DNA from: Candidatus Saccharimonadota bacterium | GTDB taxonomy: Bacteria > Patescibacteriota > Saccharimonadia > Saccharimonadales > UBA4665 | Direction: 5' to 3' | Assembly: GCA_020427985.1 (NCBI GenBank) | Contig: JAGQNR010000004.1 | Coordinates: forward strand, 8,342 to 52,692 | DNA: 44,351 nt | Shown: positions 23,720 to 27,025 of the stretch, one piece after another | Position numbering within the stretch: the first letter of the stretch is position 1 | Layout of the letters: every line of letters begins with the position of its first letter | Notes under the pieces: generated by a model | Seen by the model: the letters and a program-made list of their open reading frames with translations, nothing else | What the model was told of the DNA's origin: nothing | Database searches by the model: none | Made by a program: the position numbers and the translations under genes

Positions 23720-25366
23720 TTACATCATGCCCATGCCGCCCCCCATAGCTGGCATAGCGCCGCCTTCGGGCTTGGCTTCGGGCACCTCTACTACAAGTGC
23801 GCCCATGGTCATGGCGGTACCAGCAATAGAAACAGCGTTTTGCAAGGCCTCTTTGGTAACTCGGGCAGGGTCTACCACGCCAGCTGTTTTAAGGTCGACT
23901 AGCTTTTCTGGATGATTCACATCGACACCGTGGCCTGGTTTAGCCTTTTTAACCTGAGGCAGCCATTCATCGGCGTTCAGTCCAGAGTTGGTCATAAGAA
24001 TACGGAATGGTTGTTCAAGCGCGCGAACCAACAGTTGGTAGCCAGCACCCTGTTCGCTGTTGCCTTTGGTCCCCAGCCCCTCGGCGAGGTTAACAAGAGT
24101 CACGCCCCCACCGGGAACAATGCCCTCGGCCAATGCAGCCTTGACAGCAGCAACGGCATCATCAACTCGGTATTTTTTCTCTTCGATTTCGGTTTCGGTG
24201 GCGCCTCCAACTTTTATAACAGCGACCTTGCCACCAAGAGCGGCCCGGCGCTTGTCATAAAAGTCGCGGTCGTAGGTACTTGTAGCATTGGTACCCTGCT
24301 CGGCAACCTGCTTAACACGGGCTGCAATCTCGGTAGACGAACCGGCTCCCTCGATAATGGTAGTTTCATCTTTAGTAACAATGACTTTGCGGGCGGTGCC
24401 CACAACCTCGAGCCCAACATTCTCAAATGTCATGCCGCGGTCGTCAGTAATAACTTCGGCACCAGTTAGAATAGCAATGTCTTGCAGCATGTCTGCGCGC
24501 TTGTCGCCAAAGCTTGGTGCTTTGACAGCGACCGAATTAAACACACCCTTAAGACGGTTGAGTACCAGTGTACCAAGGGCTTCGCCCTCGACATCGTCGG
24601 CAATCAGCACGAGATCTTTTTTGCCGGCTTGCGCTAACTTTTCGAGCAATGGAACAAACTCTTGTACCGACGATACTTTTTTGTCGGTGATGACAATGGC
24701 GGGTTTGTTATAAACAGCTTCCATACGGGTGGTGTCGGTCACCATGTAGGGGCTAACAAATCCCTTGTCAAAGGTAAAGCCTTCGACCACTTCGCTTTCG
24801 AGCGCGAGCCCCTGCCCTTCTTCGACGGTTACTACCCCGTCACGGCCCACCTTTTCCATAACGTCGGCAATCAAATCGCCAATAGCCTTATCGCCAGCCG
24901 AAATAGTGGCAACTTCGGCAACACGGCCGCGGTTTTCCTTGATGTCTTCGGCAAGTTTGTCGAGCGCCTTGAGCGCATCGCTGGCGGCTGCCTCTAGTCC
25001 TTTACGGAGCAACATAGGGTTGTGTCCAGCGGCAATCAGGCGGTTCGCTTCGCTCAAAATGTGATAGGTCAGGACGGTGACGGTCGTAGTGCCATCGCCA
25101 GCAACATCGTTCATTTTGTTAGCAGCTTGCTTAATAAGCTCGGCGCCAACTTTGTAGCCAAGAGTTTCGTCGTCGACATCGGCAATTTCGACTCCTTTAG
25201 CAACGGTTACACCGTCGTGTGTCACGCTGGGTGCCCCATAGCTTTTACTAATAACCACATTGCGGCCTTTTGGCCCCATAGTTGTTTTGACGGCGTTGTA
25301 CAAAATTTCGGCACCGGCTAGAACGCGCCGACGAGCGTCATCATCATAAAAAACCTTTTTAGTCAT
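23720..25366 (-). CDS. groEL: 60-kDa chaperonin GroEL
   Basis: 548-aa subunit of the ATP-driven folding chamber. The N-terminal equatorial domain has TMGPKGRNVV and VAGDGTTTVTVL, the nucleotide-binding loop; the apical domain follows, then DDAVAAVKAALAEGIVPGGG, and the tail is Gly/Met-rich (MGGGMGMM). Length is standard. AAGGAG stands 6 nt before the ATG, inside the end of a 45-aa gene whose TAA stop directly precedes this start. It is in the groES operon under CIRCE control. Confidence 0.98.
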   Translation of the reverse strand: MTKKVFYDDDARRRVLAGAEILYNAVKTTMGPKGRNVVISKSYGAPSVTHDGVTVAKGVEIADVDDETLGYKVGAELIKQAANKMNDVAGDGTTTVTVLTYHILSEANRLIAAGHNPMLLRKGLEAAASDALKALDKLAEDIKENRGRVAEVATISAGDKAIGDLIADVMEKVGRDGVVTVEEGQGLALESEVVEGFTFDKGFVSPYMVTDTTRMEAVYNKPAIVITDKKVSSVQEFVPLLEKLAQAGKKDLVLIADDVEGEALGTLVLNRLKGVFNSVAVKAPSFGDKRADMLQDIAILTGAEVITDDRGMTFENVGLEVVGTARKVIVTKDETTIIEGAGSSTEIAARVKQVAEQGTNATSTYDRDFYDKRRAALGGKVAVIKVGGATETEIEEKKYRVDDAVAAVKAALAEGIVPGGGVTLVNLAEGLGTKGNSEQGAGYQLLVRALEQPFRILMTNSGLNADEWLPQVKKAKPGHGVDVNHPEKLVDLKTAGVVDPARVTKEALQNAVSIAGTAMTMGALVVEVPEAKPEGGAMPAMGGGMGMM

Positions 25367-25504
25367 TTACTTCTCCTTACTGGTGTTCTTCTCTAGTAAT
25401 TTTTCTATACGCGCGAGTGTTTCGCTGGTTTTGGCAGTATTTGCCTCGATGCGAAACATCCAAATCAGTCCAAAAATAAACAGTAGTACGCTCGTAATAC
25501 CCAT
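25367..25504 (-). CDS. 45-aa membrane protein between groES and groEL
   Basis: Small gene wedged between groES (3-bp gap) and groEL (stop directly followed by the groEL ATG). The product starts MGITSVLLFIFGLIWMFRIE, one membrane helix, followed by a charged, helical tail with a heptad-like pattern (TSETLARIEKLLEKN). The reading frame exactly fills the gap. Its last codons supply the groEL Shine-Dalgarno. No family is recognised. Its own ribosome site is weak, so coupling to groES is likely. It might tether or sense the chaperonin at the membrane; that is speculation. Confidence 0.68.
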   Translation of the reverse strand: MGITSVLLFIFGLIWMFRIEANTAKTSETLARIEKLLEKNTSKEK

Positions 25505-25507
25505 AAC

Positions 25508-25777
25508 TTATGCATCTACCGTGGCTAATACATCTTGCTCCTGGACAAGCAGGTACTCTTTGCCATCGACTTTTATGTCGGTTTGACTATAGCTTTTATA
25601 AACAATTTTATCGCCCTTTTTTACACCCTGTACTGCTGGTCCAACAGCTAAAACATTGGCGACCTTGGGCTTTTCTTGCGATGCCGACGGTAAGTATAGG
25701 CCGCTGGCAGTCTTGGTTGCTGCTTCTTCTACCGCTGCAACAATATAGTCGGCAACGGGCTTGAGTGGTACTGACAT
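25508..25777 (-). CDS. groES: 10-kDa co-chaperonin GroES
   Basis: 89-aa lid subunit of the GroEL chamber. Family segments are visible: LKPVADYIVAAVEEAATKTASGLYLP (mobile loop region), KVANVLAVGPAVQ, KKGDKIVYKSYSQTDIKVDGKEYLLVQEQDVLA. Length is slightly below the usual ~95. AGGAGG lies 4 nt before the ATG. The leader carries a CIRCE operator, making it one of the few first genes here with a genuine 5' UTR. Confidence 0.96.
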   Translation of the reverse strand: MSVPLKPVADYIVAAVEEAATKTASGLYLPSASQEKPKVANVLAVGPAVQGVKKGDKIVYKSYSQTDIKVDGKEYLLVQEQDVLATVDA

Positions 25778-25808: not shown

Positions 25809-25835
25809 TTAGCACTGTAGTGCTTAGAGTGCTAA
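25809..25835 (-). promoter_or_regulatory. CIRCE operator (HrcA site)
   Basis: Inverted repeat TTAGCACTG (25809-25817), 9-nt spacer, GAGTGCTAA (25827-25835). It differs from the CIRCE consensus at one base. It lies just downstream of the predicted +1, so HrcA binding would block the start of transcription and the RNA carries the repeat. No hrcA gene is in the window. Confidence 0.93.
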
Positions 25836-26266: not shown

Positions 26267-27025
26267 CTAACTATTTCGATAGTTAACATCGGAATGCTTG
26301 TCGAGAAATGTTGTCAGTGCTGTCTCGCCGATTTGGTGTGGGTCAAATCCTGAGGTTCCCACCCTCTCCGCGCCTAAAACGTATGGAGTAATAACATCTT
26401 CAATAATTTTATCACCAGCTTGATTTGGATTTTTGCCCCCATAACCCTTATATGCTAACGATTGTACTAATGAGTCTAAGTCATGCTGGAAAGGGTCATT
26501 TTTGATGTGGCCAAATTCTTGTGAGCCACCCTTTTCTGGATCAATGACCATTATATGTCTTTTCGCTCTCGGGTCGATCACAAAATTCTTAATTTGTGCG
26601 TCTCCGTGGCTGAGTCCTAAGCCGTTGTACCCTCCAAGAGTTGCTGCGGTTCGGCGAACTTGTTGTGCGACGTCATGACTTCTGTTTTGTACAACAGACG
26701 ACATGCTAGACAGGTCCGGTACATACTGTGTCAATAAAAACGCTGCGCTGCCATCACGATTTTCCTGTACTCCTGTGGGAGTGAGCGTCAAAAATCCTGC
26801 TTCTCTAATAAGATTTAGCATATTCTTTTCGTGGGTGGCTCGAGCCCGAGCTTTCTCCCCAACATACGCTTTTACAGCAAGTGGTCCATTTCCATTGGAT
26901 ACAAAAAAAACTTTGTGTGCCGAATCTGTTGCGCCGAGAGTTAGCCAAGGTAGTTCTCTGTAGTTTGGGCGTTCGGGGAAAAACAGTTCAGGGGGACTAT
27001 ATGCAGTTTGTTTTACTTTTGACAT
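26267..27025 (-). CDS. Phosphotransferase/kinase-fold protein
   Basis: 252-aa cytoplasmic protein with the protein-kinase-like fold of small-molecule kinases (APH, Kdo kinase). GPLAVKAYV holds the likely ATP-binding Lys (near 52), GLSHGDAQIKNFVID is the catalytic loop with HGD and a downstream Asn, and HIMVIDPEKG replaces the usual DFG or DFE. TEYVPDLS-like hinge residues lie between. AGAGGA lies 8-13 nt before the ATG, and the upstream gene ends 5 bp away, so the pair forms an operon. The substrate is unknown; antibiotic, lipid and protein targets all remain possible. Confidence 0.75.
   Translation of the reverse strand: MSKVKQTAYSPPELFFPERPNYRELPWLTLGATDSAHKVFFVSNGNGPLAVKAYVGEKARARATHEKNMLNLIREAGFLTLTPTGVQENRDGSAAFLLTQYVPDLSSMSSVVQNRSHDVAQQVRRTAATLGGYNGLGLSHGDAQIKNFVIDPRAKRHIMVIDPEKGGSQEFGHIKNDPFQHDLDSLVQSLAYKGYGGKNPNQAGDKIIEDVITPYVLGAERVGTSGFDPHQIGETALTTFLDKHSDVNYRNS

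Follow-up and report, generated by a model that had tools for sequence, protein, structure and literature searches.

Few two-gene operons of bacteria are as strongly conserved as the groES–groEL pair, and its co-factors are regarded as known. In the window, the whole stretch of 44,351 nucleotides analysed here, which comes from a member of the Saccharibacteria (very small bacteria, mostly host-dependent), this pair is encoded on the minus strand with an additional frame between the two genes. The order on this strand is groES, 3 nt, a 45-codon frame, 0 nt and groEL, with exact gap lengths, and the coordinates agree exactly with an earlier note on this DNA, according to which the frame fills the groES–groEL gap with 3 bp before and 0 bp after it. 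The identities of groES and groEL are backed by Pfam and NCBIfam profile matches. The features of the locus are the following.

25367..25504, minus strand: gene of a predicted 45-aa single-pass membrane microprotein, stop codon included (read from the sequence, homologs, shuffles and AlphaFold2).
25454..25504, minus strand: predicted transmembrane helix, residues 1–17 (mean hydropathy 2.24; hydropathy and AlphaFold2).
25370..25453, minus strand: charged helical tail, residues 18–45, with coiled-coil-like spacing (IE.NTAKT.ETLARIEKLLEK), the best-conserved part within the genus (also AlphaFold2).
25373..25378, minus strand: AAGGAG, Shine–Dalgarno site of groEL in the last codons of the microprotein gene (read from the sequence).
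25508..25777, minus strand: groES (Cpn10 match, E 2.5e-22).
23720..25366, minus strand: groEL, Cpn60 (TIGR02348 match, E 7.4e-182).
25809..25835, minus strand: CIRCE operator upstream of groES, with one mismatch to TTAGCACTC-N9-GAGTGCTAA.

The protein translated from 25504 to 25367 is MGITSVLLFIFGLIWMFRIEANTAKTSETLARIEKLLEKNTSKEK (45 aa). Its residues 1–17 are strongly hydrophobic on the Kyte–Doolittle scale (mean 2.24), the remainder is charged, and the AlphaFold2 model is a single continuous helix of residues 3–44 (mean pLDDT 84.5), in agreement with the earlier proposal of one membrane helix and a charged helical tail. The groEL ribosome site is also found where it had been proposed, at the end of the frame (AAGGAG at 25378–25373). 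Part of the Lys/Glu-rich C-terminus is explained by this site, because the Shine–Dalgarno sequence encodes Lys-Glu or Lys-Lys there; the middle of the tail, which is conserved within the genus (IE.NTA.T.E.L.RIE..L), is not dictated by this signal. When 15 gap proteins are compared, the N-terminal flank is neutral or acidic and never positive in all 15, and the membrane-proximal part of the tail is mostly net positive. These charges suggest that the topology is most likely N-out/C-in, the indication being weak for the window protein itself, whose net charge is 0 on either side of the membrane. With such a topology the tail would be in the same compartment as GroEL, the cytoplasm. The tail probably self-associates as a coiled coil; a profile search of the PDB gives weak matches throughout, the best being mainly to coiled coils of the GCN4-zipper sort, which fits a zipper-like tail and assigns no family.

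The CIRCE operator is also readable in four other carriers of the gap gene, with one or two mismatches (five of five where readable), and the window genome encodes HrcA (PF01628, 63.3 bits compared with a cut-off of 22.2). The order of groES and groEL, the CIRCE element upstream and the HrcA gene in the genome are those of a HrcA/CIRCE groESL operon; unlike in that system, a third gene, for a membrane microprotein, is present here between groES and groEL. The part of the earlier note that described a membrane protein co-expressed with the chaperonin under CIRCE is thus borne out to the extent that a selected gene is located in a CIRCE operon of a genome with HrcA, and from this arrangement we infer heat induction of the microprotein along with GroES and GroEL. 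A promoter scan with a consensus gave nothing meeting its criteria. Coupled translation is suggested by the few nucleotides between stops and starts, or by their overlap: the groES stop and the microprotein start are 3 nt apart here, and TAATG or ATGA overlaps are found in other species. Upstream of groES, a phosphotransferase/kinase-like gene with an HGDA..N motif is seen both in the window (26267–27025, minus strand) and in a distant carrier, G121 (L046, 2089–3078, minus strand); the two genes are weakly related (28% identity, E 1e-6).

The survey of groES–groEL gaps took in 30 families and 102 genera of the order, with 210 genomes, and a further 75 genomes from other orders and classes of the phylum, the latter number being obtained from a tally of 77 that included two records without kinship, taken as duplicate contigs of the own genus (L047 and L048). 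In the order, 158 of the 210 gaps are shorter than 90 nt, and most genomes manage with about 10–25 nt. A gap gene is carried by 23 of the 210 genomes, which span 10 genera and 5 families; contamination is 9% in the assembly of carrier G065 and 6% in that of carrier G134. The carrier frames have 40–67 codons and a single strong N-terminal membrane helix, they start between −4 and +5 nt from the groES stop, and they mostly end at most 8 nt before groEL, three species of genus g126 leaving 24, 45 and 115 nt. No carrier is found among the 75 genomes outside the order, though 24 of the gaps there measure 90–300 nt (Fisher p 3e-5 for the difference from the long gaps of the order). The distribution is patchy: in sister species the gap contains nothing but a ribosome site or a hairpin in the RNA, and in genus g91 none of the 29 sampled gaps has the gene. 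A gene found in no more than 23 of the 210 genomes, and in none of the sampled g91 gaps, is dispensable to the chaperonin. Copies outside the groES–groEL gap are not found in 392 genomes of the order, the weak matches inspected being unrelated proteins (an RmuC-like protein, one with a SHOCT-like tail, and others).

Within the genus of the window, homologs in the same gap are found in two of the six other genomes: a 41-aa protein in G003 (gap of 130 nt, 41% identity to the window protein, MAG contig JAGXIT010000005.1) and a 49-aa protein in G006 (gap of 154 nt, 49% identity, MAG contig PDRS01000001.1). In this trio the nonsynonymous divergence is 0.33–0.36 of sites and the synonymous divergence 0.76–0.96 (Fisher p 4e-4, 5e-6 and 7e-10), which is a synonymous excess for which no ratio can be given, as the synonymous sites are saturated. 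In the four remaining members of the genus, groES and groEL are separated by 135, 10, 102 and 95 nt, with no frame in between. Because these gaps contain a bare ribosome site or unrelated sequence, the difference is one of presence and absence and not of neutral decay of the frame.

The strongest selection test is provided by genus g126, which belongs to another family. The gene is present there in 11 of 14 species, it encodes 44–67 aa with the conserved core QSxxLL...ILLxILVxVHxQxxRVKELExRMKAME, and the three close pairs have dN/dS values of 0.04, 0.06 and 0.10 (Fisher p 5e-4 to 3e-7). The other three species have a common hairpin-containing sequence in place of the gene. The comparison of spacers among relatives, in which a frame kept with synonymous bias was expected to speak for the gene and spacers without a frame, or a dN/dS near 1, against it, gives a divided answer: four of the seven genomes of the genus are without the frame, and there is synonymous excess in the trio and a dN/dS of 0.04–0.10, far from 1, where it is measurable, in g126.

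It is next to impossible that the frame is a chance open frame without a product. The absence of the frame from four of the seven genus genomes would be compatible with this explanation, but it is contradicted, and ruled out, by the shuffles and by the selection seen in the genus trio and in g126. Among the 39 distinct long gaps of the order that were read first, 15 have a membrane frame, compared with 0.013 expected from dinucleotide shuffles of these gaps, at a hydropathy threshold that was chosen after the sequences were seen; for any gap-filling frame in the same gaps, with no hydropathy condition, the numbers are 18 and 0.44. None of 300 dinucleotide shuffles of the window gap yields a comparable membrane frame. 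The reality of the gene, its selection, its operon position, its membrane helix and its recurrence across families are computational results, and as a real, selected and recurrent gene the gap frame is well supported by the sequences compared.

The gap genes may not all belong to one family. The proteins of the own genus match those of G121 (family f30), G134 (family f16) and G107 (genus g26 of the own family) more closely than expected from shuffles in which helix and tail retain their composition, so that this similarity covers four genera in three families (L001/L008/L024, L046, L078 and L153), and a search of the 392 whole genomes with the own-genus profile recovers the gap gene of G121. 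In an HMM–HMM comparison the own-genus type and the g126 type have a probability below 17%, which is not significant. On a GroES plus GroEL tree, 15 trait changes are needed for 16 carriers (15 with a single-helix frame and one with a two-helix frame), which means frequent gain and/or loss of the gene. It may be an old gene that evolves fast and has disappeared from many lineages, or it may have arisen repeatedly. It is quite possible, if short of probable, that on several occasions the gap gave rise to or took up different small membrane proteins, a convergence that is compatible with the mechanism proposed below. The number of changes on the tree, the lack of a significant match between the two profiles, the two-helix frame of L129 and the different tail of L016 and L085 point in this direction; the significant similarity of the proteins of the own genus, G121, G107 and G134, although from different families, points away from it, and very short fast-evolving proteins lose detectable homology. 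The L129 frame (G137; 53 codons with two membrane helices in a 183-nt gap) is a different type of protein. A 142-codon frame is present in the 633-nt gap of L292 (G613), which belongs to the phylum but not to the order, and in G232 (L212, G232:C2) the groES match crosses one TAA, possibly a natural stop before the end of the match, a broken groES or an assembly error.

It is proposed that the frame is the third gene of the groES–groEL operon and that its product is a single-pass membrane microprotein, with the N-terminal helix in the cytoplasmic membrane and the short, charged helical tail in the cytoplasm as a self-associating coiled coil. Its translation would be coupled to that of groES, and its final codons contain the ribosome site of groEL; it would thus be made together with GroES and GroEL once HrcA releases CIRCE. 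The microprotein would then hold the chaperonin or its clients at the membrane, or modulate a membrane quality-control machine. Action at the membrane in protein quality control is the most likely reading, and a moderately probable one; its mechanism of action we infer, and its partner is guessed. Direct tethering of the chaperonin or of its clients at the membrane is suggested only tentatively, and it is similarly tentative to regard the microprotein as a membrane-anchored chaperonin co-factor of the Saccharibacteria, with a coiled coil that would anchor the folding chamber, or else its clients, to the cytoplasmic membrane. The earlier note is right that the gene exists and that its location is meaningful, and the tethering that it proposed stays a hypothesis.

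It is possible, though on balance unlikely, that the microprotein is a stand-alone membrane-stress protein co-induced with the chaperonin, acting as a sensor or stabiliser of the membrane, or tuning a membrane protease or the translocon as PspB or other small regulators do, without touching GroEL. Like PspB of the envelope-stress response, to which the likeness is one of working only, it is small and stress-linked, with a membrane helix at the N-terminus and a short zipper-like helix or coiled coil after it, and the gene is freely lost while the chaperonin remains. Unlike PspB, it is encoded in the chaperonin operon rather than in a psp operon, it has 40–67 aa, and there is no significant sequence match: one gap-gene member matches PspB (TIGR02976) very weakly, below threshold (E 0.048), and the window protein does not match it. 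That homologs are detected nowhere but in the groES–groEL gap speaks for a connection with the chaperonin operon. An even less likely explanation is that the frame only couples translation and sets the GroES:GroEL ratio, the amino acids being irrelevant and the hairpins of the sister species being equivalent to it. Stop/start overlaps at both ends indicate coupling, and strong hairpins are often found in the long gaps of non-carriers (z down to −5.7), but the gaps of carriers are without structured RNA (z about −1.5 to +1), the 10–25 nt of most genomes suffice, and the membrane helix is recurrent. A purely cis translational role is very improbable because of the amino-acid selection (dN/dS 0.04–0.10), which rules it out as the sole role. 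Still less probable is a divisome-type protein moved into the chaperonin operon. FtsL and DivIC, of septum formation, also have a single membrane helix and a coiled coil, with weak profile matches: five of eight members match FtsL (NF049847) below threshold (best E 1e-4), and one member, but not the window protein, matches DivIC (PF04977, E 0.0016). In contrast to these proteins, the gap gene is in a heat-shock operon, its tail is much shorter (about 25 residues), the window protein scores 14.9 bits compared with the FtsL cut-off of 50, and the charge pattern suggests C-in, opposite to the C-out topology of FtsL and DivIC.

Searches of Pfam, NCBIfam and PHROGs for known families bring up no more than weak similarities of a generic membrane or coiled-coil kind, the window protein being below the curated cut-off of each family listed. 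A phage or plasmid origin was considered and rejected, as there are no relatives in viral contigs or plasmids and the PHROG matches are weak and mixed. The papers searched, mainly open-access ones, do not describe any gene lying between groES and groEL in Saccharibacteria. Random de novo proteins that act through chaperones (PMC10697842) are a loose analogy only.

With a selected membrane protein inside groES–groEL in several families of one order, the heat-shock response would be extended to a membrane component. The evidence points to this unannotated microprotein as a hitherto unstudied membrane partner of the heat-shock folding machinery, and it is a direct candidate for a link between chaperonin and membrane in organisms with strongly reduced genomes. 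It also exemplifies a class of genes missed by annotation owing to their size. The sister species with and without the gene form a natural experiment.

In long gaps without the gene, strong hairpins (z −2.8 to −5.7) are frequent, as in L159/L332, L333, L164/L335 (g126), L141, L145, L148 and L007. The hairpin of the g126 non-carriers has TGTAATTTAACAAACC...GCACTACGCTTTTAC in common across species and no match above an Rfam gathering score. The gaps of L003, L027, L116 and L125, which are from different families, contain repeated TTTACCATTT/GGTAAACGG-like palindromes that resemble small repeat insertions. The gaps of L338, L159 and L160, from different genera, have in common a motif like GAGCAGCCCG...GAGAAAAACCGTAGGTTTTGTCTC, perhaps a small mobile or RNA element.
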